The position numbers were made by a program, and so were the translations under genes. From Tannerella serpentiformis (GTDB lineage: Bacteria; Bacteroidota; Bacteroidia; Bacteroidales; Tannerellaceae), in contig NZ_CP028365.1 of the NCBI RefSeq assembly GCF_003033925.1, positions 2,232,001 to 2,296,000 on the forward strand: a stretch of 64,000 nucleotides of DNA, read 5' to 3'. The notes under the pieces are model-generated. The model had not been told where the DNA came from. It did no database searches and saw nothing but the letters and a program-made list of their open reading frames with translations. Shown here in pieces: positions 2,225 through 63,352 of the stretch (the stretch's first letter is position 1; each line of letters begins with the position of its first letter).

Positions 2225-2477
2225 GATTGTATCGTACAATCGCATGAAAAAGTTTTTTTCGGCTGATTGTATCGTACAATCGCGTGAAAAAGTTTTTTTC
2301 GGCCGATTGTATCGTACAATCACGTGAAAAAGTTTTTTTCGGCCGATTGTATCGTACAATCGCATGAAAAAGTTTTTTTCAGCCCATTGTATCGTACAAT
2401 CACGTGAAAAAGTTTTTTTCGGCCGATTGTATCGTACAATTGCCTCCAGTCAATACCTCTCATTGTATCGTACAATC
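2225..2477. repeat. 40-bp tandem array with palindrome GATTGTATCGTACAATC
   Basis: The 17-bp dyad GATTGTA-TCG-TACAATC starts at 2225, 2265, 2305, 2345, 2385 and 2425, an exact 40-bp period, and once more at 2461 with a 36-bp step. The fifth and seventh copies begin with C and the sixth ends with T. Each full spacer holds a second, A/T-only dyad, GAAAAAGTTTTTTTC. The array lies between divergent genes: the DUF6261 gene on the left and the promoter of the ATPase operon on the right. It has no unique spacers, so it is not a CRISPR. Confidence 0.95.
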
Positions 2478-2518
2478 GCCTGCCCCCGAATGATCGTTTT
2501 CACTTTTCGCGGCCGGCC

Positions 2519-2526
2519 TATCTTTG
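2519..2526 (+). promoter_or_regulatory. Promoter -7 box (TATCTTTG) of the ATPase operon
   Basis: TATCTTTG matches the Bacteroidetes -7 consensus TAnnTTTG and lies 49 bp before the ATPase start codon. I see no clear -33 TTTG at the usual spacing. The last palindrome of the array (2461-2477) is centred about 53 bp upstream, a position from which a bound protein could affect transcription. Confidence 0.55.
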
Positions 2527-2574
2527 CCCGCGGCAAGGCCATGGTGGCCTATACGTATTATATACAGCAACAAG

Positions 2575-3750
2575 ATGAAGGAATCCATCCATATCCAGAA
2601 CTTCGGCCCGCTGCGCGACGTGCGGATCGACGACATCAAGCCCCTGACCGTCCTTATCGGCGACTCGGCCAGTGGCAAAAGTGCGTTGATGAAGGTGATT
2701 GCTTTTATGCGATACATGTACAAAAAGGGCAACGTTAGAGCCTACTTGAAAAAGGCGAATATCGATGTTTCCATAAGTACCCAGCCTTTTTTCAAAGATG
2801 AGCTGGAACCAATGGTTAGCTTAGATACCGAGATCGTATACACCGTGCAGATGGATAGTAGGTTGATGTATACTGTCGAATACAATTCCAATGAGAACCG
2901 GCTGACAGTTGATTATAACTCAGGTAATGAGGACTTGGTTTTCTTCAAAGAATCATACGTATCCGAAACACGTAGCATTATCCCCTTATGGTCTCTGCGT
3001 GGTGCAAGGTTCCCGGGAGCCGATTTAGGCTACTATTTCAATGAGACATTTCGTGACTTCTCTGAGGCTACCGATCGCATCAAAGAACAATCGTTGGATT
3101 ATATAGGAATGAAGATGGAAGTGAAGACCGAGCTTACACGCAAGCACTTTCTGATTTCTCCGAATGACGAAAGCCATGAAGTGTTCGAGTTGGAACACAC
3201 TTCGTCCGGCATACAGGCTTCTGTTCCATTAATGACCATCGTGCGCTACTTCGCTCATAAATTTTCGTTCACTAACGCCTTTCGTCGCTCTGTGTTGGAT
3301 CAACTTTCCGATGATGATATTTCGCAGTTCCGCCCCGAGATCAACTTGAAAGACCTCAAGAAGTACATCCATCTTCATATCGAGGAGCCAGAGCTGAGCC
3401 TCGATCCGAAGACGCAATGCCTCTTCATCAACGACCTGATCCGCGAAGCCTTCTATCGCGGGGATAACAAACGCCCGGACGACGGTCGGCAGCTCGGTCT
3501 GATGTTCGCCACCCACAGCCCCTACATCCTCAACCACCTCAACGTGCTCCTCAAAGCGTCCTACAACGAAAAGGCCCGTGAGCACTATCCCTATATCAAC
3601 CCGGACGAGATTGCGGTGTATCGGTTGCATGACGGAGAGGTGCATTCGCTGGTGGAAGACGATGAGGAAACAGGCGAACGCATCATCGACACGTACAAGT
3701 TTTCCGAGACGATGGAGTGGATCCTCGATAAATACGAAAGCGTAGACTGA
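2575..3750 (+). CDS. AAA/ABC-type ATPase (AAA_21-like), first gene of a two-gene module
   Basis: The product has 391 residues. Walker A is GDSASGKS at residues 29-36. The late block HLHIEEPELSLDP (about residues 266-278) is the Walker B and signature region of the ABC/OLD/SMC-like ATPases, followed by FATHSPYILNHL (about 311-322), the conserved His region of these enzymes. The middle (60-250) is poorly conserved. Such ATPases are common partners in anti-phage modules such as PARIS, Septu and AbiL, but the partner here is not one I recognise. The start is the ATG followed by KESIHIQNFGPL, the usual N-terminal strand. Stop and next start overlap by one base (TGATG), so the pair is probably coupled. 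AT-richer than its flanks. Confidence 0.8.
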   Translation: MKESIHIQNFGPLRDVRIDDIKPLTVLIGDSASGKSALMKVIAFMRYMYKKGNVRAYLKKANIDVSISTQPFFKDELEPMVSLDTEIVYTVQMDSRLMYTVEYNSNENRLTVDYNSGNEDLVFFKESYVSETRSIIPLWSLRGARFPGADLGYYFNETFRDFSEATDRIKEQSLDYIGMKMEVKTELTRKHFLISPNDESHEVFELEHTSSGIQASVPLMTIVRYFAHKFSFTNAFRRSVLDQLSDDDISQFRPEINLKDLKKYIHLHIEEPELSLDPKTQCLFINDLIREAFYRGDNKRPDDGRQLGLMFATHSPYILNHLNVLLKASYNEKAREHYPYINPDEIAVYRLHDGEVHSLVEDDEETGERIIDTYKFSETMEWILDKYESVD

Positions 3751-4421: not shown

Positions 4422-4459
4422 TTTTATATATGCACATAACCCCCAAACACATACACGCA

Positions 4460-5020: not shown

Positions 5021-5037
5021 AACGACTCCGCACCGTC

Positions 5038-5859: not shown

Positions 5860-5876
5860 GCACCCACGAAGTATAG

Positions 5877-6045: not shown

Positions 6046-6093
6046 GAACCAGGCAGGCACAAAGCCCGCCCCCACACCTATCACATCACCTTC

Positions 6094-8256: not shown

Positions 8257-8570
8257 CCAACCACCTGGTTTGACCCTTTCCAGGGGTCGGTTTTGCTTCA
8301 AACCACCTGGTTTGACCCTTTCCAGGGGTCGGTTTTGCTTCAAACCACCTGGTTTGGCCCTTTTCAGGGGTCGGTTTTGCTTCAAACCACCTGGTTTGGC
8401 CCTTTTCAGGGGTCGGTTTTGCTTCAAACCACCTGGTTTGGCCCTTTCCAGGGGTCGGTTTTGCTTCAAACCACCTGGTTTGACCCTTTTCGGAGGTCGG
8501 TTTTGCTTCAAACCACCTGGTTTGACCCTTTCCAGGGGTCGGTTTTGCTTCAAACCACCTGGTTTGGCCC
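8257..8570. repeat. 42-bp tandem array with dyad AACCACCTGGTT
   Basis: The core CCACCTGG begins at 8261, 8303, 8345, 8387, 8429, 8471, 8513 and 8555, eight copies at an exact 42-bp step. Each unit also has a second dyad built on GACCC...GGGTC (GACCCTTTCCAGGGGTC), altered to GGCCC in several units. Because 42 is a multiple of three, open frames run through both strands; these are by-products, not genes. The array fills the gap between the DUF3127 gene and the promoter of the next lipoprotein gene. Confidence 0.95.
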
Positions 8571-8701
8571 TTACTCAAGGGGCAGAAGAAACCAAGACAC
8601 CCAGATCGATTTTTCCGCCAGTAGGGCAGGGGCACACCCGCCTCCGTAGGCCGACTTGAGCGGACGAAAAAGTCGCAATGGCCTAAAGAATGATTTGACT
8701 T

Positions 8702-12134: not shown

Positions 12135-12238
12135 GTCGATATATACCTCTGCATAGTGGTCACAGCTAGGGCAACCGCATCAAAACCATACCTACGTCCC
12201 AGTCGTCCCAGTCGTCTGCTTATCTACGGAGATCCCAC

Positions 12239-12501
12239 CCACACGTGGTTCTGCTTTCCGTAGGGGTACAGACATTAAAACCACGCGTGGTTCTGCTTTC
12301 CGTAGGGGTACAGACATCAAAACCACGCGTGGTTTTGCTTTCCGTAGGGGTACAGACATCAAAACCACGCGTGGTTTTGCTTTCCGTAGGGGTACAGACA
12401 TCAAAACCACGCGTGGTTCTGCTTTCCGTAGGGGTACAGACATTAAAACCACACGTGGTTCTGCTTTCCGTAGGGGTACAGACATTAAAACCACGCGTGG
12501 G
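12239..12501. repeat. 42-bp tandem array with palindrome CCACGCGTGG (locus 1)
   Basis: The palindrome CCACGCGTGG, or its variant CCACACGTGG, starts at 12239, 12281, 12323, 12365, 12407, 12449 and 12491: seven copies at an exact 42-bp step. The rest of the unit reads through CTTTCCGTAGGGGTACAGAC. The same unit forms the array at 63,098-63,352, in the same orientation. It lies between the lipoprotein terminator and the promoter of the porin-like gene. Confidence 0.95.
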
Positions 12502-16020: not shown

Positions 16021-16215
16021 CCATTGAGACGCCATCGTGTCGCACGATGGGACCAAAATGGTCGTTGAGACGCCATCGTGTCGCACGATGGGACCAAAAT
16101 GGTCGTTGAGACGCCATCGTGTCGCACGATGGGACCAAAATGGCCATTGAGACACCGTCGTGTCGCACGATGGGACCTAAATGGTCGTTGAGACGCCGTC
16201 GTGCCACATGATGAT
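16021..16215. repeat. 41-bp tandem array with dyad CCATCGTGTCGCACGATGG
   Basis: The 19-bp dyad CCATCGTG-TCG-CACGATGG starts at 16032, 16073, 16114, 16155 and 16196, with an exact 41-bp step; the last two copies have CCGTCGTG and the fifth is degenerate. Each unit holds a second dyad, GACCA-AAA-TGGTC. It lies between the substrate-binding-protein gene and the promoter of the phosphoesterase gene. Confidence 0.95.
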
Positions 16216-22847: not shown

Positions 22848-22852
22848 GGTTG

Positions 22853-23803: not shown

Positions 23804-24288
23804 ACTGATCAAACATTGAGATGGGGAATGAAATGGTGTGGTGTTTTATTGGAATGCAAGTGATTTAAGATCAAACGCCCGTACTTTTTGGCTTCTTCTT
23901 ACTACAAACTACAATCGCCATAATCGACTGTTTCCCAATAGCATCCATGCAAATCGAAGTCACTACGCGGCTGACTACATGTTGCTACTACAGATTTGAA
24001 GGAGGGGAGTTCAGTGATCCACTGAAGTCATTTATGTTGCTTCTATCTGCCTGTTTGGTTGGTTTGGATGAGTTTTCGGGGGGTGAAAGTGTGATGAGCA
24101 TCCCCGGCATCCAAGCATGCAGCGCATTCCGGCATGATGTTGCGTCTGTTTGCTGCCGATTTCTTCAGAGAATAGGCTTTGCAAGGAAGTGATTCGCCCA
24201 TCCGATAAGACAAAATGGCATTGAAAGGAAAAGAGCTTAGAGACGATTCGCAGGTTGATATCTGCATTCAAATGCCGCTGTTTTCCGA
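23804..24288. other. Intergenic part of the island, no convincing gene
   Basis: Short open frames occur on both strands (for instance 23947-24192 plus and 24032-24271 minus) but their translations are Cys- and Ser-rich and match nothing I know. This gap may mark deletion of a replication gene between primase and the excisionase-like gene. Confidence 0.4.
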
Positions 24289-24490
24289 ATGAACGGCAGC
24301 TGCACCCATGCTATGCCAGCCATTTCCTCACTGTTTTGCGAACGACTCTACATCAGCCCTCGCACTTTGCAGGATTATCGCGATCGAAAGATCATCCCCC
24401 TACACGCAGTTCGCCGGTAAGATCCTTTACAAGGTCTCGGATCTTGAAAAGATCTTGGAGGAGGATTACAAAGGGAGAAGCTCCTTATGA
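24289..24490 (+). pseudogene. Frameshifted helix-turn-helix (excisionase-like) gene
   Basis: From ATG 24289 one frame gives ...CERLYISPRTLQDYRDRKIIP, then breaks at the run CCCCC near 24398. The next frame continues PYTQFAGKILYKVSDLEKIL followed by EEDYKG to the stop at 24490. Joined, these make the end of a typical Bacteroides HTH_17/excisionase domain (LHISPRTLQ-Y-D-GxIPY-Q-GxKIxYK-D). One extra C is enough to explain the break. The N-terminal part is also short, so the gene is probably dead and the island perhaps fixed. Confidence 0.65.
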
Positions 24491-24556
24491 ACAACCGTCC
24501 AAGCGAATAGAGGATTCTGCAAATAATATGCAATATCAGCATGTTACATCGGACAG

Positions 24557-25003
24557 ATGAGATCAAATCGTCATCTTTGCAACGTGATAAGGAAAAAGGC
24601 ATATTTATTCAATCTGTGGCTGGCAACACTGTTGGTGCTGTCAGTTACTTTTTTGCCTCATCACCACCATTTGAAAGCGGTGTGCTTTACGGAGGAAATC
24701 TGTGATGTTGACGGTAACATCAACGATCAGCACACGGCACATCACGCTACAGAGCAGGAATCAAACTCAGAAGACTGCTCTATTGACCAAATCAAGCAAA
24801 TATTTATAGGAGAAAAGGGCCTGCAACAACTCAAGCAGGCTGTTTCACAACAGGCACATATGCTGTATGCTGTGGTATTGTCCATTCTCGCAATACCTCA
24901 AGCCGACGTTTCACCTTATGAAAAAGCATTCCAAGAGCCGCTAATCCGCTTTTTAGATTGTTGTATTTCATCGGGTGGATTGCGTGCACCTCCCATACTG
25001 TAA
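24557..25003 (+). CDS. DUF6769 family protein of the metal-efflux operon
   Basis: The 148-residue protein has an N-terminal hydrophobic segment (LFNLWLATLLVLSVTFLP) immediately followed by HHHH, then a His/Cys/Asp-rich stretch (ICDVDGNINDQHTAHHATEQ). It fits the DUF6769 type that precedes CusA/CzcA genes in Bacteroidales. It is probably a periplasmic or membrane-anchored metal-binding protein. A GTG at 24584 (VIRKKAYLF) is an alternative start, since a near-consensus -7 box (CATCTTTG) lies at 24569. It precedes the czcA gene by 81 bp. Confidence 0.72.
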   Translation: MRSNRHLCNVIRKKAYLFNLWLATLLVLSVTFLPHHHHLKAVCFTEEICDVDGNINDQHTAHHATEQESNSEDCSIDQIKQIFIGEKGLQQLKQAVSQQAHMLYAVVLSILAIPQADVSPYEKAFQEPLIRFLDCCISSGGLRAPPIL

Positions 25004-25084
25004 TTATATCTCGTTGTTTTTCTCGGGATCTGCAAGAAGCGGATTCCGGCAATTTCACACACATATAATTCACAGTATAGAAAC

Positions 25085-28000
25085 ATGATCAATCGAATTA
25101 TTTTCTTCTCCATCAAACATAAGTTTTTGGTGGTGCTGCTATTAGTTGCCATTATTGGAGGCGGCCTTTACTCGATGAGCACCATCAACATCGACTCAAC
25201 ACCGGATATTACCAACAATCAGGTGCAAGTCATCACTGTATCAGAAAATCTTTCTGCGGCCGATATAGAGCAGTTTGTCACTTATCCAGTAGAGCTGGCC
25301 ATGTCAAATCTGCCGGGCGTAGAAGATATTCGTTCTGTTTCCCGTTTCGGCCTTTCGGTCGTTACGATTGTTTTTAAGGATGATTTCGGGACTTATCTTC
25401 CACGACAGTTGGTTCAAGAAAAACTCGAAGAAGTCCGCGCAGATATACCCGAAGGATTCGGCACACCCGAAATGGGCCCCATTACTACAGGACTTGGCGA
25501 AATCTATCAGTACACGCTCGTACCCAGGGATTCGGCCCGATATACAGCACAAGAATTACGCACAATGCAAGACTGGCTTGTGAAGCGGCGCTTATCCATG
25601 CTCCCCGGCGTAGTAGAGGTCAATTCGTTCGGCGGAAGTGTAAAGCAATACGAGGTGTCCCTTAATCCGGAAAAGCTCAAAGCAATGAGTGTAAGCATTA
25701 GCGACGTGTATGAGGCCTTGAGCCGCAACAATGCCAATACAGGCGGTGCATACATTGAGAAGAACCATATGGCCCACTTTATTCGAGGTGAAGGCTTGGT
25801 GAAGTCATTAGACGATATAAAAGACATTGTCGTAAAGAACAACAACGGCCGACCGATGCTCATTCGCGACATAGCCGACAAGGTGGATTATGGATCACAG
25901 GTCCGCTATGGCGCATTTACGCAAGATGGGCGAGAAGCTGTGGGTGGAATGATACTGATGCTCAAAGGAGCTAATTCAGACAAAGTGGTAACCGCTGTGA
26001 AGGAAAGGATGAGGCAAGTACAAAAGTCCCTTCCGTCGGACATTGAGCTGAAACCTTTCCTCGATCGATCCAATCTGATAGGCCGCACCACAAGCACCAT
26101 CGCTCGTAATCTGATTGAAGGTGCGCTCATTGTCATCTTTGTGCTCGTCTTATTGTTAGGCAGTGTACGCGGCGGAATCATCACGGCCTCTGTCATACCA
26201 CTATCACTGCTTTTTGCTTTCATTTTAATGCGTGTCTTCGGCGTATGGGCCAACTTGATGAGCCTTGGTGCCATAGACTTCGGCATTATAGTGGACGGCG
26301 CTGTGATTATTGTCGAAGGCGTTGTTTTCGAAATAGAGTGCCGCATTCGTCAGCAGCAAGATTCCCTTAGTCGCACGGATATGGATGAGATCAGTTATAA
26401 GGCCTCTTCCACGATGATGCATTCCGCATTCTTCGGTCAACTCATCATCCTCATTGTGTTTACCCCTATTTTATTCCTCGCCGGCGTAAGTGGAAAGATG
26501 TTTGCGCCTATGGCTTACACCTTCTCGTTTGCTGTACTGGGTGCTCTCATACTTTGCCTAACGTATGTGCCGATGGTGTCTTCATTATGGATGAACCCTT
26601 CAAGCCATGCGGATAGTTATATGGCACGTGCAGAACAAAAATTAGAGCAGCTGAGCAATCGTTTTATCGGGGCCATAATCCGTGTTTACAGGCCGATGCT
26701 TACCTTCGCTTTGCGGCATAAACGGAGTGTTATTCTCTCCGCCATAGGACTGTTTGGGGTGGCTGTCTTTGTTTTCTCGAAAATGGGTGGAGAGTTTATT
26801 CCCGAGCTGGATGAAGGAGACATTGCCATGCAAACGTTTCTGCGACCGGGCAGCTCACTTTCAGAGACTATTGAAAGGGAGAAAGAGGTGGAAAGGCTTT
26901 TGTTAAGGAGCTTTCCGGAGATCAAGACCGTATGTGCCCGGATCGGTGTGGCTGACATCCCCACGGACCCAATGGGCTTTGATTATACAGACAGCTTTAT
27001 CATCTTGGAAAAAGATAGGAGCAAGTGGACATCAGCCAAAAGCAAAGAAGAGCTGATAGAAAAGATCAAGGCGAAACTGCAAACGTTACCCGGACTCAAT
27101 TTCGCTTTCTCTCAGCCCGTAGCGCTCCGTTTTAATGAGTTGCTGACCGGGGTACGCGAGGATGTCGCGGTAAAACTTTACGGTGATGATCTCGAACAAT
27201 TGAATAAGCTGGGCGAACAGATGGTAAATATCATCAGTAAGGTGCCGGGGGCAGGTGATGTGGCTCTTGAACGCACAGCCGGACTACCACAGATCACTGT
27301 AAAGTACGACCGTCGCCGCTTGGCTCAGTACGGGTTGGAGGTAGATAAGCTCAATCGCTATGTGAGTGCAGCCTTTGCAGGAGGTCCGGCCGGAGTCGTC
27401 TTCGAGGGTGAAAAGCGCTTTGACCTTGTGTTACGCTTGAGCGATACTTATCGCAAAGGCATCGACAATCTGAGGTATCTGTTCATCGATCTTCCTGACG
27501 GTAGACAGATTCCGCTTGGTGAGGTGGCCAACATCAGCTATCAATCAGGCCCTATGCAGATCTCGCGCGACCAGGCTTCGCGCCGCATATATGTTGGGGT
27601 GAATGTTCGTGGGCGTGATGTGGCGTCAGTGGTGGCCGACATACAAAAGCAATTAGAGAGACAGCTCGAATTGCCTCCCGGCTACCATCTGACCTATGGC
27701 GGAGAGTTTCAGAATCTACAAGAAGCTAAAGAGCGCCTGGCCGTTGTACTGCCAATCGCCTTATCGCTCATTTTCTTGCTCCTCTATTTCGCTCTCAATT
27801 CGCTTAAGCAAAGCCTGATGATTTACATGGCTGTTCCGCTGGCCACGATAGGCGGTGTTTTTGCTTTGGCCTTACGGGGAATGTCTTTCTCCATCTCGGC
27901 CGGTGTTGGCTTTATCGTGTTGTTCGGTGTGGCTGTGCTTAACGGACTTGTGCTTATCAATCGTTTCAACGCTCTCAAACAAGAAGGTGTGACCGACATA

Positions 28001-30597: not shown

Positions 30598-30627
30598 CAG
30601 AGGCGATAAAGCCTTCCTTTCCTCGAT

Positions 30628-31080
30628 GGGGAAATGGCCTCTCCCGAAGGTTGGACCCATTTCCTCAGTCGGGAAATGACCTCTCCCGAAGGTTGGACCC
30701 ATTTCCTCAGTCGGGAAATGGCCTTTCCCGAAGGTTGGACCCATTTCCTCAGTCGGGAAATGGCCTCTCCCGAAGGTTGGACCCATTTCCTGACTCGGGA
30801 AATGGCCTCTCCCGAAGGTCGGACCCATTTCCTCAGTCGGGAAATGACCTCTCCCGAAGGTTGGGCCCATTTCCGAGGCTCGGGAGTGGCCTCTCCCGAA
30901 GGTTGGGCCCATTTCCGAGGCTCGGGAATGCCCTCTCCCGAAGGTTGGACCCATTTCCGAGGTTCGGGAATGCCCTCTCCCGAAGGTTGGACCCATTTCC
31001 GAGGCTCGGGAATGCCCTCTCCCGAAGGTTAGACCCATTTCCGAGGCTCGGGAATGGCCTCTCCCGAAGGTTGGATTCCT
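30628..31080. repeat. 42-bp tandem array inside the metal-efflux locus
   Basis: The word CTCCCGAAGG recurs at 30641, 30683, 30725 (as TTCCCGAAGG) and on to 31061, eleven positions with a 42-bp step. Each unit pairs GGAAATG with CATTTCC across its length, and CTCGGGA with TCTCCCGA in the later units. Two sub-types follow one another (CCTCAGTC then CGAGGCTC). It separates czcB from the P-type ATPase gene, within the acquired island. Confidence 0.95.
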
Positions 31081-31157
31081 TTGAGGCTTGGGGAAGAAGG
31101 TGGCTGGCATACGTCGAATCATTACTGCATAAGAATTGCATATCCAATCACATCATC

Positions 31158-33041: not shown

Positions 33042-33088
33042 ATCTCTCTCTCTACACAAAGGCATATCACATGAAAGAGGAATGAAAA

Positions 33089-33155
33089 AGAAGGGGAGTA
33101 AGGTGTAGTCAGAATGGTTTCATCTATCCTGACTACACCTCAACCCCTCTTCTTT
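33089..33155. terminator. Terminator hairpin after the P-type ATPase gene
   Basis: Arms AGGTGTAGTCAG (33101-33112) and CTGACTACACCT (33129-33140) form a perfect 12-bp stem, extended with gaps by AAGGGG / CCCCTCTT outside. It lies about 60 bp after the ATPase stop and about 110 bp before the converging recombinase stop. Confidence 0.75.
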
Positions 33156-33247
33156 CACTGTATTACCCCCATTGTAGTCATGTAGTAAGATAGAATCAGT
33201 GAAAGGGAAAAAGTATGCCGTTTTACGTTAGACAGCCGTCCTAGGAA

Positions 33248-34456: not shown

Positions 34457-34468
34457 GTTGGTCTGTGG

Positions 34469-35698: not shown

Positions 35699-35981
35699 AC
35701 GCTTTGAAAACTGTGGGCAAAATTACCCGGTTCAAAGCGTCCGTTACCTGTGCAGAATCCTGTATATCAATGCAAAAGAACCGTGTGCGAGAAAGACTCA
35801 GTTACCTGCTTTTGCACCCTCGTTACCTGTCGCGGGGCGGGGTAATGCTTTGGTAACTGAACTTCTGCCTAAAATCGCACTTTTCTGCCTTTTACGCTCG
35901 ACGCAATCGGAAGCATATCGACCCCTTTCTGCCTAATTATCAGTCCACTTACTCCGACATCGAGACTTCTGCTTTTGAGGG
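35699..35981. other. Non-coding right end of the island
   Basis: This is the promoter side of the recombinase pair. Repeated words GTTACCTG and TTCTGCCT occur (for example TTACCTG at about 35743, 35799 and 35824, and CTTTCTGCCTAA / CTTCTGCCTAA). They may be recombinase or excisionase binding sites. No gene is seen. Confidence 0.35.
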
Positions 35982-36230
35982 GAATAGTTGGTTCAGGACG
36001 TGATTAAATACCCCGCCGAACCGTATTAAATACCCTTCGAAACGGTATTAAATACCCCTCAGGACGTCATTAAATACCCCTCTAAACCATATTAAATACC
36101 CCTCGGAACGTGGTTAAATAACGTCCAGAACGTGGTTGTGACCACCTCTGAAGGGTATTTAATGAGGTTCGGAACGTATCGACGACCACCTCCGAACGGT
36201 ATTTCACCACGTTCCGAAGGGTATTTCACG
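35982..36230. repeat. 22-bp repeat array, right part, with internal inversion
   Basis: ATTAAATACCCC-type units start at 36003, 36025, 36047, 36069, 36091 and 36113 (strict 22-bp step). From about 36135 to 36225 the same unit runs in inverted orientation (GGGTATTTAATG, CGGTATTTCACC, GGGTATTTCACG). It is the counterpart of 20,505-20,596 on the other side of the island. From 36,231 to the DUF4835 stop at 36,338 nothing else is seen. Confidence 0.85.
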
Positions 36231-43915: not shown

Positions 43916-44857
43916 TTATTCTTCCGGCAGATGGATGTCCGGATTGCCATCGTCGCCACCCGGTTTCTTCGGATCCTTCGGTTTCTCGCCACCCGGTTTC
44001 GGCGGCTGAGGCGTCTCCGGCTGCTTCGGTTCCTTCGGCTGCTCCGGAGTTTTCGGATCCTTGGGGGCCTTCGGTTCCTTGGGTTGCTTGGGAGCGTTCG
44101 GATTCTTAGGCTTGCGACTGGCCAAGATCTGACGCTGGTTGCCCTTAATGTCGATCACAACCTTATTCATACGATCGACGAGCTGCTCGATCATCGCCTT
44201 GTCCTCCTCGGCCGTAGCGGTGAGGTAGGCTGACTGAATGTACTGGCAGACTACATCGTAGGCGGCGTCAGTCAGCGGACGCACCTGCTGAGCTGTCGGG
44301 AGTTTCTCGTCGGAGGTTTGGATACGGCGATCGGTGCGGAGCTTTTCGTACTCCTCATTGACGGTATGCAGTCGCGTCAGAACGTCGGTGAGGCCAACGG
44401 CTGCAATGTCCGCCGTCTTTGTCTTCATGTCGTCTTCCAAGCCGCGTATACCCACACTTTCCATTTCGAACGGGCGACTGCGGAGGTTGCTGTACGGTTT
44501 CAGTTTGGCCTCGAGGCGTAGCGCGGCTTCGCGGGTATCTTCCGTGGGCGAGTACTTCAAACCGCTAACGACATGAAAGATGCCGTCCAGCAGGTTGTCG
44601 CGTTCGTTGTCCAGAGCCAGCATTTTGGCGGTACGCTCGGAAACGGCCGATTGTTCGACGAGCTTCGTCTGCGCGCCGATCGTCGTGTCCCAAGCGTTCA
44701 TCACTGTGACAGGGATTTTGAGCTTTGTCTGATCCACCGCCTTCACCAGTCCGTATTGCAGGTAGTGAAACTGGGTGTGGAGCGAGATGTTCAACATCTG
44801 TCTGTTGCCCCCTTCAAATTTCATGACCCGGGGCAAGGTCACTTCGAGTATTTTCAT
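43916..44857 (-). CDS. DUF6261 family protein with Pro/Lys-rich tail (copy 2)
   Basis: The 313-residue paralogue of the protein at 1136-2110 shares the core blocks [66 protein letters not shown] and the final DIHLPEE. The tail of about 70 residues is PKEPK/PQPPKPGGEKP low complexity. I set the start at 44857 (MKILEVTLPRVMKFEG), which aligns with copy 1; an in-frame upstream ATG would add an unrelated 26 residues. Upstream, ATGCAAAGGTGCAT (44881-44894) is a perfect dyad over a promoter-like CACCTTTG on the minus strand. A palindromic array lies further upstream. Confidence 0.75.
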   Translation of the reverse strand: MKILEVTLPRVMKFEGGNRQMLNISLHTQFHYLQYGLVKAVDQTKLKIPVTVMNAWDTTIGAQTKLVEQSAVSERTAKMLALDNERDNLLDGIFHVVSGLKYSPTEDTREAALRLEAKLKPYSNLRSRPFEMESVGIRGLEDDMKTKTADIAAVGLTDVLTRLHTVNEEYEKLRTDRRIQTSDEKLPTAQQVRPLTDAAYDVVCQYIQSAYLTATAEEDKAMIEQLVDRMNKVVIDIKGNQRQILASRKPKNPNAPKQPKEPKAPKDPKTPEQPKEPKQPETPQPPKPGGEKPKDPKKPGGDDGNPDIHLPEE

Positions 44858-45029
44858 TTCTCTCAGGGTGTTTATTAACCATGCAAAGGTGCATGAAATG
44901 CCAAAAGATTCGATGCTCCCCCTGAATTGGAGCAAGATGTTTTTGAAGCAGAAAGGTCGTCCTCAAACACGAAATGGATCTCTGCTCCCGTGAAACACCA
45001 AAATGAAACGCGAAACCGATCGCTGATTT

Positions 45030-45340
45030 CCAAAAACGCCTTCCCGCCGCGGGAAACCGATCAAAACTTCCGAAAAACGCCTTCCCGCGGCGGGAAATGG
45101 GGTAAATTCTCCGAAAAACGCCTTCCCGCGGCGGGAAATGGGAAAAATTCTCAGAAAAACGGTTTCCCGCGGCGGGAAGGCGATAAAATCTCCCGAAAAA
45201 CGGTTTCGTGCGGCGGGAAGGCGGTAAAATTTTCTGGAGATCGGTTTCCCGCGGCGGGAAATGGGGCAAAATCTCCGAAAAACGCTTTCCGCCGCGCGAA
45301 GAGCATTTTCAAGAAGCCGCCGTCCCCGCCGCGGGAAGCG
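45030..45340. repeat. 41-bp tandem array with palindrome TTCCCGCGGCGGGAA
   Basis: The 15-bp dyad TTCCCGC-G-GCGGGAA starts at 45041, 45082, 45123, 45164, 45205, 45246 and 45287, an exact 41-bp step, with small changes in some copies; a degenerate eighth lies at about 45323. Spacers share CTCCGAAAAACG. It lies between the DUF6261 copy 2 gene and ugd, which diverge. The step of 41 cycles frames, so open frames here are shadows. Confidence 0.95.
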
Positions 45341-47231: not shown

Positions 47232-47286
47232 AAGCCGGGTACACGAGGGAACGCATCCCATCATGTACCCGGCTTTTCGTTTTTAG
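47232..47286. terminator. Bidirectional terminator between nlpE-like gene and porU
   Basis: Arms AAGCCGGGTACA (47232-47243) and TGTACCCGGCTT (47264-47275) form a 12-bp stem followed by TTCGTTTTTAG. It serves converging genes; the porU stop lies at 47283. Confidence 0.85.
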
Positions 47287-50200
47287 TTTTTCGCTCCGAG
47301 GATCACCATCTTCTGGGCGCGGGTGGCCTCTGACGAGCCCGCCGTACGGATGGCCGCGCGGTAGATGTACACGCCGGGGCGCAGACGGGCGCCGCGTCCG
47401 TTGGTCAAGTCCCACGTGACGGTGTAGGCGTGGAAGAGCTCCGACGATCCCTGCTCGGTGTGCTGCCATTGCAGGCGACCCGCCAGATCGTAGACGCCGA
47501 TCGTGACTTCCATGCGTGACTCCGGGCGATTGTGGTCGAGGTAGAAGGTCACCTGGTCGCGGGCTGGCACGGGGCCGGCGCGTAGCTCGGTGATGGACGG
47601 TCGGAGTCCCTTCTCGACTTGGAAGGTGAAGGTGCGCGTGGTGGAGTTGTTGAAGATGTCCCACACCTTGAACTCCGCCGTGTGCGTCCCCTCGGCAAGG
47701 CGCGGGATGGAGAAGCGCACCACGCCCTCACCAGCGACGTCGGTGCGGTCGGCGTAGTAGCTGTTCAGGTTGTAGCTGAGGGCGGGATTGTTGTCGATGG
47801 TCAGCGTGATGTCGTGCCCGACGCTGCTGCCGGTGATGTTGATTCCCGAGGCGTCGCGCAGGTGGGCGACGAAGAAGGGCGTCTCGTTCGTCTTGTCGCC
47901 CTCGCTCCAGGTGCTGTCGTTGAGGTAGAGCAGGCGGATGTCCGGGCCGACGGTGTCGCGTTCGATCTGGGTGGCGGTGCCGCCCACGGTATAGCGACGG
48001 TAGGCGCCGTTTGCCTCGCGCTGCTGCGCGGCGTCGTAGGCGTAGAGGCTCATTTTCCCGTTGCGATTGGAGTAAGAGATGTCGGCAGGGACGGTGAAGC
48101 TGAGCGTGAACTGGCCATTGGTGACGACGGTGTTACCCCGGTGGATGGTGTTCGGGTAATCGGTGTAGGTGTAGGTGTGGCCCGTGCGGTTGTTGTTGAG
48201 CGTGGTGATCTCTTTCTCGCTGTCGAGGACGACGGCCGTCAGGGCGCCGTTGAAATCCGTGAGCCGCGCGCTGTCCAATCCGATCACCTCGCCCTTGATC
48301 GTCACTCGGTCGAGGGCCCGGAGGTTCACCGTCCCCTCGGTGGCGGACTTGCCGTTGATCTCTGTCACACGGATCCCGTAGGTGGGGAAGGAGAGCGTCA
48401 GGGCCGGGTCGCCGATGAGGACGAAGCAGCGGTTGAGGTACGACAAGTAGCCGTTTTTCATCCCCATCAGTGCCTCCCCAAGGGTGGCCCGACGACCGTC
48501 CGCGCGGCGTTTGAAAAGTTGCTCGAGGAGGATGCCATTCATATTGAAATTAGGCTCATCGTAGGCCACGCGCGAGGTGGTGATCAGCGCAATGCCGCCA
48601 CTCTTCTCGTTGAGGAAGACATCCTCTCCGGCAGAGGTGACCGTATGATCGAAGGGCGTGAAATCGCACGAAGCCGTGATCCAGAGCGGCAGGTGGGAGT
48701 AGGTATATTGCTGGATCATGCTCTGGGTGATGACGTGCTCATCGCTCAGGGCCTGGGCGTTACCGTGGCCATTGTAGTTGATCAGCATGGTGCCTTCGCG
48801 CTGCAGGTTTCGGAGGGCGGTGACCACGTCGGGGTAGGCGCCGCTGCCGCCTCCGCCCGAGCTGCTCTTCTTATAAGCGTCGAAAAGGAGGCGGTGGTTG
48901 ATGTACTCCGGGTAATTCTGCTCCACGAATTGCGAGAGGCGGTTGGCGTCGCTCATGTGGCGCGTCTTGTAGCCGTCGGTGGAGTTGCCGTCGTCGCCGA
49001 TGAAGCAGAGATTGTTTTTCCAGGCGCCGAAGGAGGGGTTATCGATGTAGCCGACGACCTTGTTGACGGCCGCGCGTGCCTGGGTGACTGTGCGGACGGG
49101 GAATCGGCCGATGCCGAGTCGCAGGTTGCAGGTGCCGATGCGAGATCCCTCGCCGTCGTCCAGGAAACCGAAGTAATCATCCGTCACAAAGGTCTCGTGC
49201 TCCTCGCCGCCGCCCGTCCAATTGCCACCTAAGGAGAAGTGGGACTGGTAAGTGAGGAGGAAATTCGTCATGTCGATGCCCTTCCAGGCCGAAGAAAGCT
49301 GACGGTTGTCGTGCGACCCATCGCCGAAGAGCAACAGATATTTCGGGGCGTCGGACTCCGAGGAGCGACGGTCGTAAAACATCTTCATGAAGCGACGGAT
49401 GGCGGTCGCATCTGGCGTGCCGCTCGAGAATTCGTTGTAGACCTGCTCGGGAGTAACGATGGTGACGCTGATCGAGTCGCGCTTCGTGCGGTGCTTGGCG
49501 GCCAGCCGCTCGGCTTCGCTGAGGAAGGCCGGGGGAGAGAGGATCACCATGTCGGTTTGCGGAAGGGCGTGCAGGTTTTGCGCCGTCACGGCCCCGACGG
49601 TCTCGGGGGTGGGGAAGGTCTTCGTGGGGTCGATCAGCACGAACTCCCGGAGGGTGTCGCCACTGGCGGGGATGGAGAACGTGAGCGCGGAGCCGTCGCG
49701 GCGTGTCGCCATGCGGCTGACGCGTTGAGGGTGGGTGACGTCGAGGACGATCATCGCCTCCGTGGCGCCGGAGATGACGAAGCGGGAGGCGGAACGCATC
49801 GAGGTCAAGTCGCGGAAGAAGGTGAAGGGCGCGTCGTAGGCGCGGAGCGTGCGGCGGACCTGGAGGCGGATGTAGTCGAGGAAGCTGTTGGCGGCCGCTG
49901 CCTTGTCGTAGGCCACGGTCACCTTCGGCGCCTCGCTCTTTTCGCCGCGCCAGGAGCTGGTGCCGACGTATTCGTGGGCTTTGGTGTAGGTCTCGTTGTC
50001 GAACGGGATCGTGCCGCGGAGCAGCTGCGTGCCGTCGATCGCGAGCGTGACTGTGCCGGCGCCCGTCACCCCGGTGTAGGCCACGAAACGGAGCGTGACT
50101 TTGCCCTCTTCGGCCGTGATGCCCGGCACGGAGAAGGGAAAAGTCTGCGATAGGGTGCTGGAAAAACTCTCGCCGAAGAGGTCACGGCCGGATCCGGTCT

Positions 50201-50741
50201 GCCCCAATTTCTGAAGGAACTCGCGATCCACCTCGTGCAGCAGGTGGTCGTCGAAGACGGTCACGTCGCGTGCGGCCGTGACGTCGGCGGAGGTCGTGCC
50301 CGCGTCGGCGGTGGGCGTGGCGTCGGTCACGAAGTAGTAACCGTGCGTGGCGTAGGGGTTCACCTCGTGGGTGAAGGTGCCGGCCTTGCGGTCGTAGGTC
50401 CACTTGATGGGGCCGCGCCCGTAAAAGAGGATGTAGTCCGCGCCTCGGTAGACGGGTGTGGCGGGCAGGTCGTCGACATAGCCGCCGTGCGAGAAGTCCT
50501 CGTCGAGGATGTAGCCGCCGTAGCCGTGGACAGAGACCTTGGTCGGGTCCGCGAAGCCCATGGCGCGGAGCTGGTCGTAGGTGAGTTTGTAGATGCCGTC
50601 GTCGGCAACGCGGACCTTCACCCACCGTCCCTCAGCCAGCGCAGAGCTGCGGGCATAGAGCTTGGCGTCTGCGCGCGCGGCCGTGGCGGTAAGGGCCCAG
50701 AGGGCGAGGGCGCAGCATATCGTGGTCAGTATACGTGTCAT
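47283..50741 (-). CDS. porU: Type IX secretion system sortase PorU (C25 peptidase family)
   Basis: The 1152-residue protein (P. gingivalis PorU is about 1158) has a signal peptide (ILTTICCALALWALTATAARA), an N-terminal domain, and a gingipain-like C25 peptidase domain. The catalytic His is in LINYNGHGNAQALSD (about 660) and the catalytic Cys in PLWITASCDFTPFD (about 690). The C-terminus holds an immunoglobulin-like region and a CTD-like ending (GARLRPGVYIYRAAI, then MVILGAKN). PorU cleaves the C-terminal signal of T9SS cargo and transfers the cargo to A-LPS at the cell surface. It is the only T9SS component in the window. Confidence 0.95.
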   Translation of the reverse strand: MTRILTTICCALALWALTATAARADAKLYARSSALAEGRWVKVRVADDGIYKLTYDQLRAMGFADPTKVSVHGYGGYILDEDFSHGGYVDDLPATPVYRGADYILFYGRGPIKWTYDRKAGTFTHEVNPYATHGYYFVTDATPTADAGTTSADVTAARDVTVFDDHLLHEVDREFLQKLGQTGSGRDLFGESFSSTLSQTFPFSVPGITAEEGKVTLRFVAYTGVTGAGTVTLAIDGTQLLRGTIPFDNETYTKAHEYVGTSSWRGEKSEAPKVTVAYDKAAAANSFLDYIRLQVRRTLRAYDAPFTFFRDLTSMRSASRFVISGATEAMIVLDVTHPQRVSRMATRRDGSALTFSIPASGDTLREFVLIDPTKTFPTPETVGAVTAQNLHALPQTDMVILSPPAFLSEAERLAAKHRTKRDSISVTIVTPEQVYNEFSSGTPDATAIRRFMKMFYDRRSSESDAPKYLLLFGDGSHDNRQLSSAWKGIDMTNFLLTYQSHFSLGGNWTGGGEEHETFVTDDYFGFLDDGEGSRIGTCNLRLGIGRFPVRTVTQARAAVNKVVGYIDNPSFGAWKNNLCFIGDDGNSTDGYKTRHMSDANRLSQFVEQNYPEYINHRLLFDAYKKSSSGGGGSGAYPDVVTALRNLQREGTMLINYNGHGNAQALSDEHVITQSMIQQYTYSHLPLWITASCDFTPFDHTVTSAGEDVFLNEKSGGIALITTSRVAYDEPNFNMNGILLEQLFKRRADGRRATLGEALMGMKNGYLSYLNRCFVLIGDPALTLSFPTYGIRVTEINGKSATEGTVNLRALDRVTIKGEVIGLDSARLTDFNGALTAVVLDSEKEITTLNNNRTGHTYTYTDYPNTIHRGNTVVTNGQFTLSFTVPADISYSNRNGKMSLYAYDAAQQREANGAYRRYTVGGTATQIERDTVGPDIRLLYLNDSTWSEGDKTNETPFFVAHLRDASGINITGSSVGHDITLTIDNNPALSYNLNSYYADRTDVAGEGVVRFSIPRLAEGTHTAEFKVWDIFNNSTTRTFTFQVEKGLRPSITELRAGPVPARDQVTFYLDHNRPESRMEVTIGVYDLAGRLQWQHTEQGSSELFHAYTVTWDLTNGRGARLRPGVYIYRAAIRTAGSSEATRAQKMVILGAKN

Positions 50742-50845
50742 ATGTAGAAGTTAGATGTAGACATGAGCGAAAAAGTGGGGCGAATCTATGGATAACGCGC
50801 CATGGATTCAAACGAAGAAGTTCGAAAAATGTACCCATCTCTCGC

Positions 50846-51280
50846 TGTTTTGAGCAATAAGAAATGCCTCGTGCCTGAAGGTCTCATTGTCCGAAACAAT
50901 AGAAAACACCTTTTGCCCGAAGGTCTCATTGTCCGAAACAATAGGAGGAAACGAGTGCCTACGAGAACCGTTGTCTCAGACAATACTAAATACCTGATCG
51001 AGGTATTCGTGATTGATTGAGACAGCACTAAACAACAGTCATCTCATTTATGACTATCTGAGACGATCGTAGATTCTTTTCGCGCACGTTTGCTATTGTC
51101 TGAGACATTATTGAATACCCGGATCAGGTATTTAGTATTGTCTGAGACAACGGGATTTTCCTGTGGTGGAAACGCGTCATTGTTCAAGATAATGAGCGGT
51201 TCCGAGAGCAGACGTTACCCATTGTTTGAGACAATAAGAGATCCCAGTCGCAGACGTTTCCCACTGTTTGAAACAACGGG
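50846..51280. repeat. 42-bp degenerate array with dyad ATTGTCTGAGACAAT
   Basis: ATTGTCTGAGACAAT-like dyads (variants ATTGTCCGAAACAAT, ATTGTTTGAGACAAT) begin at 50886, 50928, 50970, 51012, 51054, 51096, 51137, 51179, 51221 and 51263. All steps are 42 bp except one of 41. The spacer sequences have diverged almost completely, so only the dyad and the distance are preserved. It lies between porU and the FAH-family gene. Confidence 0.9.
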
Positions 51281-51298
51281 AGATGGGGGAAACCCAAA

Positions 51299-51913
51299 TT
51301 ACTTAATGTAGAAATCGAGCAACCGCTTGTCGCCGATGAAGCCCTCTAAATGGTCGCCGATGGCTACGGGGCCGACGCCCGAGGGGGTGCCGGTGTAGAT
51401 CAAGTCGCCCATGCGCAGGGTAAAGAATCGACTGACGAAGGCAACGATGCGGTCGACGGGGAAGAGCATGTCGGCCGTTCGGCCCAGTTGCACTGTCTGA
51501 CCGTTGAGGTCGAGACGGAAGGTGATTTGGCCGATTTCGCCGCCCACCTCTTGCAAGGGGACGAAGCGGCCGACGGCTGCGGCGTTGTCAAAGGCCTTAC
51601 AGAGCTCCCAGGGAAGACCTTTGGAGCGCAGGTCTCGCTGCCGATCGCGAGCGGTGAAGTCTATGCCGACGGTCACCTCGTCATAGTATCGAGCAGCGAA
51701 CCGTTCGTCGATGTTTTTACCCAGCCTGTTGATCTTGATGACGAGCTCCGTCTCGTAGTGCACCTCGTCCGTAAAGTCGGGGAGGAAGAAGGGCTTGCCA
51801 TCTTTCAGCACGGGATCGGATTTCATGAAGATCGTAGGCTCCGGGGAGAAAAACGTGTGCTGTAGTTCTTTATTGTGATCGGCGTAGTTCATGCCGACGG
51901 CGAAAATCTTCAT
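51299..51913 (-). CDS. Fumarylacetoacetate hydrolase (FAH) family protein
   Basis: The 204-residue protein is a single FAH catalytic domain (YcgM/FAHD1-like): KIFAVGMNYADHNKE, the metal-site ETELVIKI with its Glu, GIDFTARDRQRDL, GKAF-like CKAFDNAA, and the end DLIYTGTPSGVGPVAIGDHL. Such enzymes act as acylpyruvate hydrolases or oxaloacetate decarboxylases; the substrate is not certain. It is the last gene of the operon, with its start overlapping the rex stop by four bases. Confidence 0.9.
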   Translation of the reverse strand: MKIFAVGMNYADHNKELQHTFFSPEPTIFMKSDPVLKDGKPFFLPDFTDEVHYETELVIKINRLGKNIDERFAARYYDEVTVGIDFTARDRQRDLRSKGLPWELCKAFDNAAAVGRFVPLQEVGGEIGQITFRLDLNGQTVQLGRTADMLFPVDRIVAFVSRFFTLRMGDLIYTGTPSGVGPVAIGDHLEGFIGDKRLLDFYIK

Positions 51914-56913: not shown

Positions 56914-57098
56914 AATCCATTTTTGATTGCAGCAAGCCGGCCGGTCGGGCTGGAAACGGCCGGTAGAGCCATGAAATACCCCCTGTTTAACGTGAGTTCG
57001 GTGTAAGAATAAAGCTCGCAGAGAGTTTCTACGGAAGCCCGACCAAAACGTTTTTGGAAATACCTACAACACTGTTGCAAGTGCCTCGAAGAACTTTT

Positions 57099-57310
57099 GG
57101 GCGTTTGCGGGGTGTCCCGCAAGTCTCGCGGCATTTGCTTTGACGTTTGCGGGTACTCCCGCAAGTCTCGCGGCATTTGCTTTGACGTTTGCGGGGAGTC
57201 CCGCAAGTCTCCCGGCATTTGCTTTGGCGTTTGCGGGAGTCCCGCAGGTCTCTCGGCATTTGCTTTGGCGTTTGCGGGGAGTCCCGCAAGTGCTTCGGAG
57301 AACTTGTTGG
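57099..57310. repeat. 42-bp tandem array with dyad TTGCGGGACTCCCGCAA
   Basis: TTTGCGGG begins at 57104, 57146, 57188 and 57230 (42-bp step), then at 57271 (41 bp, one base lost in the dyad centre). Each unit has a GCGGGxxxTCCCGC dyad with a variable centre and a shared spacer GGCATTTGCTTTG. It lies in the long gap between rpmH and the PAP2 gene. Confidence 0.93.
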
Positions 57311-57424
57311 CCGTTACAACATGCTATCAATGACATCCTCTATGAATAAGGGTATCTCATTCTTTTGTTGAACTCACGTCTGTTTACCGTCTGCTGAAGC
57401 CTTTTGTTGGCGCCCGAATTACGC

Positions 57425-57890
57425 TGCTTATCCGGGCCACTGTGCGAAGCCGGTCGAGTGCCTGTTTGAGGCCGCGCAGGCCTCCGCCGAGGCCGGGGAA
57501 GTATGCTTGGTACATGATGAGGTGGGATTTTGTCTCGTAACAGACCAGATTTCGCTGGCGGCCGGCCTCTGCCGAGGCCGGGGAAGTATGCTTGGTACAA
57601 GAATGAGGTGGGATTGGCTTTGTACCCGGCCAAACTTCGCTGGCGGCCGCAGCCGCCCCAATCGAGCGCTTGTTTCGGGCCGCGCAGTGTGCGCGAAGCC
57701 AATCGAGTGCTTGTTTCGGGCCGCGCACACTGCGCGAAGCCAATCGAGTACTTGTTTGAGGCCGCGCACACTGCGCGGAGCCAATCGAGTACTTGTTTGA
57801 GGCCGCGCACACTGCGCGAAGCCAATCGAGTACTTGTTTGGGCCCAAACATTTTCGCTGAAGCAATCGAGTGCCTGTTTGGCTTTGCACG
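57425..57890. repeat. 41-bp array with dyad CGCGCACACTGCGCG plus two 85-bp units
   Basis: The dyad CGCGCAGTGTGCGCG or its sister CGCGCACACTGCGCG begins at 57681, 57722, 57763 and 57804, a 41-bp step, with spacers sharing AAGCCAATCGAGTACTTG; a worn copy follows at 57845 and a fragment lies at 57445-57475. Between them, two units starting with GCCGAGGCCGGGGAAGTATG at 57486 and 57571 repeat at 85 bp and contain TTCGCTGGCGGCC and GGCCTCTGCCGAGGCC, words shared with 1-85 and 5,888-5,920. No gene is seen in 56,914-57,975. Confidence 0.88.
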
Positions 57891-59580: not shown

Positions 59581-59665
59581 CGCAGAGAGAAAGAGAGAGG
59601 GGGTGTCGACAGCAGATGTCGGCACCCCCTCTTCATTTTCCTTCTGGGGCGAGGCAGAGGAGGGG

Positions 59666-60394: not shown

Positions 60395-60439
60395 AGTCTG
60401 TCTCTTTTATCTTATTGTTTTACGGTTTGCAGTTTACAG

Positions 60440-62908: not shown

Positions 62909-63035
62909 TGCTTATAAATAAGTAGGTAGTAAAAATGCAGCCTCTGGGGGAGTGCCCGGCCTCCGTATCACTATATATAATAGGTATAGGGGTAACCGAC
63001 TATATAGCTAATCCCCCCCTTTGAAAATAGGCGCG

Positions 63036-63043
63036 CAAATGTA
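63036..63043 (-). promoter_or_regulatory. Possible promoter -7 box of pheT (TACATTTG, minus strand)
   Basis: On the minus strand TACATTTG matches TAnnTTTG. It lies 128 bp upstream of the pheT start, implying a leader of about 120 bases; no leader peptide or riboswitch is obvious in it. Confidence 0.4.
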
Positions 63044-63097
63044 AACTAAAATGGACGGTGGCTCTTGTGAAGTAGCCGCCGCAGGCAGGGCAACTGC

Positions 63098-63352
63098 GTC
63101 AAAACCTTGTATCCCTACGGAGATTAAAACCACACGTGATTCCGATCTCCGTAGGGGTACAGAGATTAGAACCACACGTGGTTCTGCTTTCCGTAGGGGT
63201 ACATACATTAGAACCACACGTGGTTTTGATCTCCGTAGGGGTACAGACATTAAAACCACGCGTGGTTTTGCTTTCCGTAGGGGTACAGAGATTAGAACCA
63301 CGCGTGGTTTTGATCTCCGTAGAGGTACAGACATTAAAACCACGCGCTGGGA
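63098..63352. repeat. 42-bp tandem array with palindrome CCACGCGTGG (locus 2)
   Basis: CCACACGTGG or CCACGCGTGG-like cores begin at 63130, 63172, 63214, 63256, 63298 and 63340, with an exact 42-bp step. The unit is that of 12,239-12,501 in the same orientation. Spacers alternate between a CTTTCC...CAGACATT form and an ATCTC...GAGAT form, the latter being a second dyad around CGTAGGGGTACA. It lies between pheT and the ferredoxin operon. Confidence 0.95.

Follow-up and report, generated by a model that had tools for sequence, protein, structure and literature searches.

Tandem dyad arrays with a step of about four helical turns and their association with DUF6261 genes in Tannerella serpentiformis

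Arrays in the window and across the genome

Here we describe a class of tandem DNA arrays in Tannerella serpentiformis and their association with genes for DUF6261 (PF19775) proteins. The window, that is, the whole 64,000-nucleotide stretch that was analyzed, corresponds to G000:C1:2232001-2296000 in a genome that consists of one contig of 3,013,500 bases. It holds two DUF6261 genes, each with an array shortly upstream, the 2224 array at a distance of 114 bp and the 45026 array at 91 bp (Table 1; arrays are named by their first position). A C25 peptidase gene (47283-50741) has a further array upstream, at 50844, which fills most of the gap there. In the window, Rfam at its gathering threshold matched only four tRNAs.

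An initial annotation of the window had proposed at least nine intergenic arrays with units of 40, 41 or 42 bp. Tandem Repeats Finder (TRF) gives nine such arrays, while five block-shuffled copies of the window produced a single TRF row with a period of at least 18. The 50844 array, missed by TRF, was recovered through ten matches to the pattern ATTGTCTGAGACAAT (at most 2 mismatches) where 0.06 were expected. The 22-bp array that had been listed as an additional member is present as a tandem repeat, but it lacks a strong dyad. The 12239 and 63116 arrays, for which distinct dyads had been given, turned out to share one unit family that has 13 occurrences in the genome, counting these two. The 30618 array is part of a duplicated segment that spans 12 kb or more (window 24001-36001 and L058:7845-19845, 99.98% identical) that also carries an AcrB-type pump gene and two tyrosine integrases; the array has the same copy number in both.

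Table 1. Arrays, DUF6261 genes and repeat elements in the window
Feature	Position	Strand	Dyad or repeat sequence	Basis and remarks
DUF6261 (PF19775) gene	1136..2110	-		Iterated profile, E 5e-88; PF19775 genome match G000:C1:2233418-2233885
40-bp array, 5.4 copies	2224..2440		CGATTGTATCGTACAATCG and GAAAAAGTTTTTTTC, 20 bp apart	TRF
42-bp array, 7.5 copies	8259..8572		TCAAACCACCTGGTTTGA	TRF
Second-kind inverted repeat	12167..12183	+	TAGGGCAACCGCATCAA, 1 mismatch	Left of 12239 array; G000:C1:2244167-2244183
42-bp array, 6.2 copies	12239..12500		AACCACGCGTGGTT	TRF, clustering; family common with 63116 array
41-bp array, 4.4 copies	16024..16203		CCATCGTGTCGCACGATGG and GACCAAAATGGTC	TRF
42-bp array, 10.9 copies	30618..31075			TRF; within duplication of at least 12 kb
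22-bp array, 5.6 copies	35998..36120		No strong dyad (arm 3)	TRF
DUF6261 (PF19775) gene	43916..44935	-		Iterated profile, E 3e-93; PF19775 genome match G000:C1:2276165-2276632
41-bp array, 6.5 copies	45026..45290		TTCCCGCGGCGGGAA	TRF
Diverged array, 11 units	50844..51304		ATTGTCTGAGACAAT-type dyads	Pattern matches, unit layout, fixed-step scan
MITE-like element	56990..57379		Terminal inverted repeats ACGTGAGTTC.../...GAACTCACGT; 7-bp direct duplication CTGTTTA	Contains 57100 array
42-bp array, 4.6 copies	57100..57291		TTGCGGGGAGTCCCGCAA	TRF
41-bp array, 4.6 copies	57658..57844		CGCGCACACTGCGCG	TRF
Second-kind inverted repeat	63086..63102	+	CAGGGCAACTGCGTCAA, 2 mismatches	Left of 63116 array; G000:C1:2295086-2295102
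42-bp array, 5.4 copies	63116..63343		AAAACCACACGTGGTTTT	TRF, clustering; family common with 12239 array

The genome was sampled as 60 systematic 20-kb stretches, nearly all at 50-kb spacing, together with the window, for a total of 1.264 Mb. A period of 40–43 bp was found in 180 of the 311 merged TRF arrays of this sample. Counting arrays with a 39–44-bp step and at least 2.5 copies gives 166, or 131 per Mb, which occupy 45,109 bp (3.6% of the DNA) and extrapolate to about 395 genome-wide. Based on our own, simple gene calls, they account for roughly 15% of the sample's non-coding DNA, and 137 of 144 non-edge arrays are intergenic. The common step claimed for the window holds across the genome sample: a TRF-independent scan for four successive 14-mers at a fixed step found 7, 71, 78 and 3 loci at 40, 41, 42 and 43 bp and none at 36–39, 45–47, 50–55 or 57–62 bp. 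The remaining loci fall at 21 and 22 bp (14 and 7), at 44 bp (6), singly at 23, 27, 30 and 48 bp, and at multiples of 7 (28, 35, 49, 56 and 63 bp; 3 to 8 each). In the stretches L026-L085, TRF also gives longer periods close to multiples of 41–43, for example 82–85, 123–126, 165–172, 210, 252, 294 and 378 bp.

By TRF, sampled DNA of a second array-rich genome (G022, 0.183 Mb) holds 136 arrays per Mb, with the same step as in our genome; the density is 16 per Mb in G023 (0.122 Mb) and 0 in Tannerella forsythia (0.402 Mb). The PheT protein of our genome is 75% identical to that of T. forsythia ATCC 43037 over the best segment, and the one conserved gene pair in the sample is separated by 487 in our genome, with an array in the gap, and by 150 in T. 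forsythia. A fixed-step scan of T. forsythia gave about four loci at every step, presumably runs of N. No array of 39–44 bp was found in 0.138 Mb of pooled metagenome-assembled genomes (MAGs) of the same genus, no array in 25 kb of the Tannerella genome G454 despite its 9 DUF6261 copies, some at contig ends, and no 40–43-bp array in a 0.2-Mb control from E. coli K-12 by TRF and the fixed-step scan. Of four unit patterns scanned against the IMG/VR database, one hit two contigs, and the contig that was followed is identical to our genome over the 3,001 bases compared. At pheT loci of other Bacteroidales (L086-L165), tandem arrays peak at 21–23 bp, or two turns, and 12 of 25 such arrays have a dyad arm of at least 5, against 14% in shuffles. 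Reading selection on the step from the indels of TRF arrays alone was rejected: indels and substitutions stand at 259:3546 in the 40–43-bp class, 60:457 in our genome's 20–24-bp arrays, 11:214 in 20–24-bp arrays of other Bacteroidales and 39:456 in G022, all of these ratios being biased by detection.

Dyads are far more frequent in the units than expected from shuffling, as the initial annotation had supposed: perfect arms of at least 6 bp occur in 92 of 153 unit consensuses, compared with 6.0% of shuffles. Half of the strong-dyad arrays (46/92) possess a separate second dyad (arm of at least 4), which in 27 of them lies 19–21 bp away, where about 11 would be expected. When a unit is reflected about its main dyad, bases around the opposite point pair as well, with a complementarity across 96 arrays of 0.39–0.58 at distances 1–5, 0.34 at 6, 0.54 at 7 and 0.26 at 10 (shuffled, about 0.25). 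In the sample average, main and second dyads alternate at intervals of about 21 bp. The second dyad noted earlier is thus real on average, at the half step and weaker than the main one, but within the window it lies at 20–21 bp in only three of the nine TRF arrays. The further proposal that every array has a dyad of its own needs a similar qualification. Clustering sorted 153 arrays into 61 clusters, the largest with 17 members and 32 of them singletons, so that private dyads are a property of families and not of individual arrays.

The two arms of a dyad change together. Where an arm position has changed on both sides, in indel-free arrays of our genome with arms of at least 6, the two bases match as complements in 74 cells and fail to in 5; counted as distinct events, there are 24 in 17 of 62 arrays versus 5 non-complementary ones. 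Shifted registers within arrays give 6–34 complementary and 17–75 not. Between arrays of a family the count is 51 versus 20, as against 3–13 versus 20–54 in registers shifted by 1–3; TTGCGGGAGTCCCGCAA, TTGCAACACTGTTGCAA and TTGCAGGAACGCTGCAA, for example, occur within one backbone. Divergence within arrays is 6.5% in arms, 15.7% in loops and 8.6% in linkers. Arm mismatches on the gene (coding) strand are GU in 57 cases and AC in 47. There is therefore no RNA-strand bias, and RNA hairpins were rejected as the function of the dyads. Terminators were rejected as well: 18 of 152 unit consensuses resemble them, compared with 10% in shuffles, and orientation is the same in 3 and opposite in 7.

The initial annotation had read constant spacing with changing sequence as a sign of selection on geometry. 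This reading is strengthened by a step that is equal across unrelated families and in G022, and by arrays with nearly random linkers that keep both the dyad and the 41/42-bp step, with the caveat that they were found through their regular step. In the 50844 array, nine of the ten steps between the eleven units measure 42 and the other 41; identity is 0.62 in dyads and 0.36 in linkers (random 0.25). At the indel-to-substitution ratio of young arrays (37:499) and with an estimated 206 or so linker substitutions, at most one indel has P ~4e-6, a figure that is only a guide because this array was picked by eye. When DNA not covered by TRF arrays was searched for runs of at least five similar 13-mers in step, chains appeared only at about 40–43 bp, with none at the eleven other steps that were tried; the chains represent six distinct arrays, two of them ordinary. 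From 13 hidden places, three low-complexity ones, two ordinary ones and one adjoining a TRF array were dropped. Of the 47 steps in the seven diverged arrays that were kept, 44 equal the array's modal value of 41 or 42, and linker identity is 0.33–0.56 (at most 0.41 in six), compared with 0.26–0.29 for random sequence. Five of the seven lie beside DUF6261.

Arrays often lie upstream of DUF6261 genes

Nine proteins are encoded beside the 50844 array and four other diverged arrays, and four of the nine are DUF6261, one at each of the four. Four proteins that Pfam identifies as DUF6261 were used to start an iterated profile, which detected 22 DUF6261 open reading frames in our sample and 3 in that of G022, with zero matches in the T. 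forsythia, G023, G454, other-MAG and pheT-locus samples. Two of the 22 are near stretch ends and were left out of the count of linkage, for which arrays comprised TRF arrays of 39–44 bp or multiples thereof and ten hidden arrays. An array lies within 400 bp upstream of 14 of the 20 DUF6261 genes but of only 131 of 770 other genes (p = 4e-7). These 14 arrays, ten from TRF and four hidden ones from the step scan, are 21–211 bp from their genes. Without the four loci that prompted the idea, the proportion is 10 of 16. Downstream, arrays accompany 2/20 DUF6261 genes and 113/770 others. All three sampled DUF6261 genes of G022 have a 41-bp array upstream.

For an independent test, 30 DUF6261 loci were picked by the protein alone from the 22 genomes, out of 30 searched, that have PF19775 matches. 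An array lies upstream, no more than 500 bp from the domain, at 21 of these loci and downstream at 2, one locus having both. Two loci (L319 and L340) belong to our own genome, leaving 19 of 28 elsewhere with an upstream array; L336 and L337 were assigned to their genomes, G022 and G056, by elimination. Where at least 600 bp of upstream sequence is available, 18 of 22 loci have the array, compared with 2 of 27 on the downstream side where 500 bp is available. Four misses (L318, L320, L323 and L334) are within 270 bp of a contig end, and L321 has 342 bp of upstream sequence and its array on the other side. The upstream arrays have steps of 40–42 bp, with one of 165 bp (four times 41), and 16 of 23 have dyad arms of at least 6.

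Copy number follows a similar pattern. DUF6261 is present in 55 copies in our genome, 44 in G022 and 26 in G023, and in 0 copies in the T. forsythia genome G021 and 14 control genomes; across the first four genomes, 55, 44, 26 and 0 copies go with 131, 136, 16 and 0 arrays per Mb. Another genus of the family is represented by two genomes with 38 and 36 copies, and another genome of our genus has 15.

An alignment of 16 members defines a domain of about 250 residues, often followed by a tail rich in Pro and Lys. R219 is invariant, while H53, R112, D169, L199 and D223 are nearly so. A structural model from the two window sequences is all-helical, with nine helices (mean predicted local distance difference test, pLDDT, 63.8). 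One window DUF6261 protein searched against IMG/VR was not found there. In the open-licence literature, the one paper listed that contains the term DUF6261 concerns streptococcal daptomycin resistance.

Regarding transcription, 116 gaps of 20–400 bp separate an array from a gene; 42 of them contain the -7 box TAnnTTTG and 3 contain it in reverse, and arrays therefore tend to lie upstream of the promoter. Promoters inside the arrays were rejected, as the motif is not enriched there (0.126 vs 0.154 per kb and strand).

Proposed protein-linked sites and competing explanations

We propose, with a probability of about 0.5, that the arrays are protein-linked DNA sites rather than functionless minisatellites and that DUF6261 binds, or is controlled through, private phased dyads; we infer binding from position, dyads, symmetry and copy number. 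In the simplest reading, a DUF6261 gene and the dyad array immediately preceding it would form the basic unit. The protein, acting as a dimer on each dyad or in a larger complex, would recognize the dyads of its own array, and the 40–42-bp step, about four turns, would set bound copies on roughly one face of the helix with neighbors touching, which could allow cooperation. The array may then act as the operator and assembly platform of its own gene, an arrangement that would amount to autoregulation. The 55 paralogues would have drifted to private dyads, and orphan arrays of the same dyad families could be further sites for the same proteins, some of them perhaps moved by miniature transposable elements. 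We hold it a shade less probable than even that DUF6261 and its upstream four-turn arrays constitute a new class of protein–DNA system in Tannerella, Parabacteroides and their kin. A genome would then have as many as dozens of paralogues, each with its own palindromic address on one helix face, and the orphans would serve as hundreds of orthogonal platforms that may organize the chromosome or regulate neighboring genes.

Several observations weigh against this proposal. DUF6261 shows no recognized DNA-binding domain, no NCBIfam or PHROG match of weight and no credible sequence relative in the PDB (best E 0.014), and the low-confidence model has no PDB fold match at E 0.001. Six of the 20 genes in our sample have no array within 400 bp upstream, nor do L326, L330, L332 and L337 have one upstream despite at least 1.3 kb of sequence. 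With about 395 arrays for 55 genes, most arrays must be orphans. The density in G023 derives from two arrays in a sample of 0.122 Mb. Compensation is weaker in our genome under looser criteria (136 complementary versus 51 not) and was not seen in G022 (6 versus 17), and palindrome correction at replication could also yield it. Finally, detection of the diverged arrays started from four equal steps and allowed the step ±2 in extension, so larger indels would have ended an array unseen.

The orphans lead to the main rival, which we judge unlikely: that DUF6261 makes or spreads the arrays as selfish elements, following a logic like that of the transposases of repetitive extragenic palindromes, with the upstream array as template and the orphans as its passive offspring. 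Within families, arrays outnumber DUF6261 genes; in the sample, clusters of 11 and 8 arrays have 2 and 1 members beside DUF6261. In 267 of 344 same-family pairs homology stops at the array on both sides, which indicates that arrays can disperse by themselves, and array ends cluster just past a complete dyad (53 of 148 in bins of 0.15–0.30 unit; 22 expected if even). The correspondence of array density and DUF6261 number in four genomes would suit a maker as well. On the other hand, no known enzyme fold or family was found in DUF6261, and isolated unit-like singles, at 12 places in the sample, are rare. Target duplications were looked for as direct repeats of at least 7 bp at array ends; these occur in 12 of 150 cases versus 2.1%, but they are mostly inside related repeats or misplaced, and none is convincing. 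Reverse transcriptases were considered and rejected: our genome has seven loci, G022 gives three matches and T. forsythia G021 gives none, but the loci read carry group II introns. The seven are at G000:C1:923967, 1668536, 1693613, 1696260, 1705888, 1974961 and 2821979.

Somewhat less probable still is that the arrays are ordinary minisatellites, amplified by slippage within miniature inverted-repeat transposable elements (MITEs) of the BrickBuilt or MITE464(PgRS) type, with an inherited step and without function. The initial annotation saw no terminal inverted repeats (TIRs); this is right for most arrays, but a minority is flanked by one of two kinds. TIR1 (TAACGTGAGTTCGA) has 40 sites versus 1 in the control and TIR2 (CAGGGCAACCGCATCAA) has 25 versus 0. 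TIR2 bounds a broken insertion sequence with transposase pieces PF13808 (just below the cut-off) and PF01609, which we take to be of ISAs1 type, and it stands on the left side of both window members of the 12239/63116 family. TIR1 is of the MITE239/MITE700/ISPg3 type according to Table 2 of Klein et al. 2015 (PMC4596501), and TIRs of this type bound the 390-bp element around the 57100 array, where the 7-bp duplication lies at both sides. Units of 23 nt are reported, and of 41 nt cited, for MITEs of P. gingivalis in the same paper. However, TIRs occur on both sides of just 10 of 153 arrays (7 TIR1, 3 TIR2) and on one side of 11 more, counts from which decayed TIRs could escape. Without regard to kind, an inverted-repeat score of at least 12 between flanks is found for 15 of 148 arrays versus 1.3% of mismatched pairs. 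Array flanks are also repeated less than other intergenic DNA (70/256 vs 70/170), and DUF6261 linkage, dyad compensation and in-step arrays with randomized linkers are left unexplained. Neutral MITE minisatellites thus explain a minority of arrays and not the DUF6261 linkage.

Fragments of another dispersed repeat, GGGCGTATGCAATACGCCCCTACC, are commoner beside arrays than expected (e.g. L073, L037, L050). An inverted duplication, L065:12047-15530 and L079:269-3755, is 96.8% identical, its aligned ends fall within arrays, and one of its array pairs is unequal in copies (8.1 vs 6.0).

It is improbable that the arrays arose from hairpin-driven replication errors without a protein partner, palindromes about 21 bp apart and template switching producing a 42-bp translation while quasi-palindromes are corrected. 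Such errors would account for the average second dyad at the half step, for compensation within arrays with fast loops (15.7% against 6.5% in arms) and for the lack of strand bias, but not for the constant distance of about 21 bp, for the persistence of the step in diverged arrays such as that at 50844, or for the DUF6261 link. Loss of SbcCD as a permissive cause was rejected: no SbcD exceeds the cut-off in our genome, and the array-rich G022 has one. The SbcD match in our genome, a weak one, is at G000:C1:1779354-1779617; T. forsythia has one SbcD.

Significance and relation to known systems

The pairing of arrays with DUF6261 suggests a so far undescribed protein–DNA system; among the matches listed, the open-licence literature held nothing resembling these arrays in Tannerella or Parabacteroides. 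PF19775 gains a concrete functional hypothesis, the binding of its own array, and many natural protein–site pairs with different palindromes in one genome would be material for a recognition code. The proposal also offers a reason for a sizable share of non-coding DNA (about 15% in the sample). If DUF6261 instead makes the arrays, it would represent a new way to produce phased tandem repeats from many seeds.

BrickBuilt, suggested as a possible relative in the initial annotation, and MITE464/PgRS are similar in that tandem repeats of 23 nt (41 nt is cited) are dispersed between genes in elements with IS5-family TIRs, in the same order of bacteria (Klein et al. 2015, PMC4596501); our arrays have a period of 40–43 and a mostly intergenic location. 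The relationship is supported by TIR1-type elements around a minority of arrays and by the intergenic repeats of about 41 nt, but not by the majority of arrays, which have no detected TIRs. BrickBuilt is reported at 19 copies in 2.35 Mb of P. gingivalis, with promoter elements active in both directions (Klein et al. 2015, PMC4596501). In contrast, our genome has 131 arrays per Mb in many unrelated unit families, with compensated dyads, DUF6261 linkage and no TAnnTTTG enrichment inside. Ten loci from each of two genomes rich in the MITE464-type repeat, which we infer to be Porphyromonas, yielded some arrays of 21–23 bp but none of 40–43 bp.

Repetitive extragenic palindromes and their mosaic elements (REP/BIME), with the transposase RAYT (TnpA-REP), are likewise many-copy, alternating intergenic palindromes with a protein gene beside its own repeats. 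Our dyads differ from them in varying by family (61 clusters) and in the rarity of isolated units. A RAYT was rejected as the agent here: our genome has one Y1_Tnp match and the array-rich G022 none, and DUF6261 is not Y1_Tnp.

Diverged arrays resemble clustered regularly interspaced short palindromic repeats (CRISPR) in having a palindromic repeat and nearly unrelated linkers of constant length. Unlike in CRISPR, the repeat core is about 12–16 bp, the step is 41/42 and the linkers are partly homologous; their identity, 0.33–0.56 versus 0.26–0.29 at random, would suit diverged homologues better than acquired spacers. None of the nine proteins near five diverged arrays is a cas product, in a comparison without a search aimed at cas families.

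In the parC/ParR centromeres and the iteron/Rep sites, phased repeats stand directly upstream of the gene for their presumed binder. Our system differs in being chromosomal, with 55 paralogues and different dyads, and no partner ATPase or replication gene was identified, no search having been aimed at them. The likeness is one of position: in our genome (14/20 genes) and at 21 of 30 loci across 22 genomes, the array stands directly upstream of the gene for the protein that may bind it.

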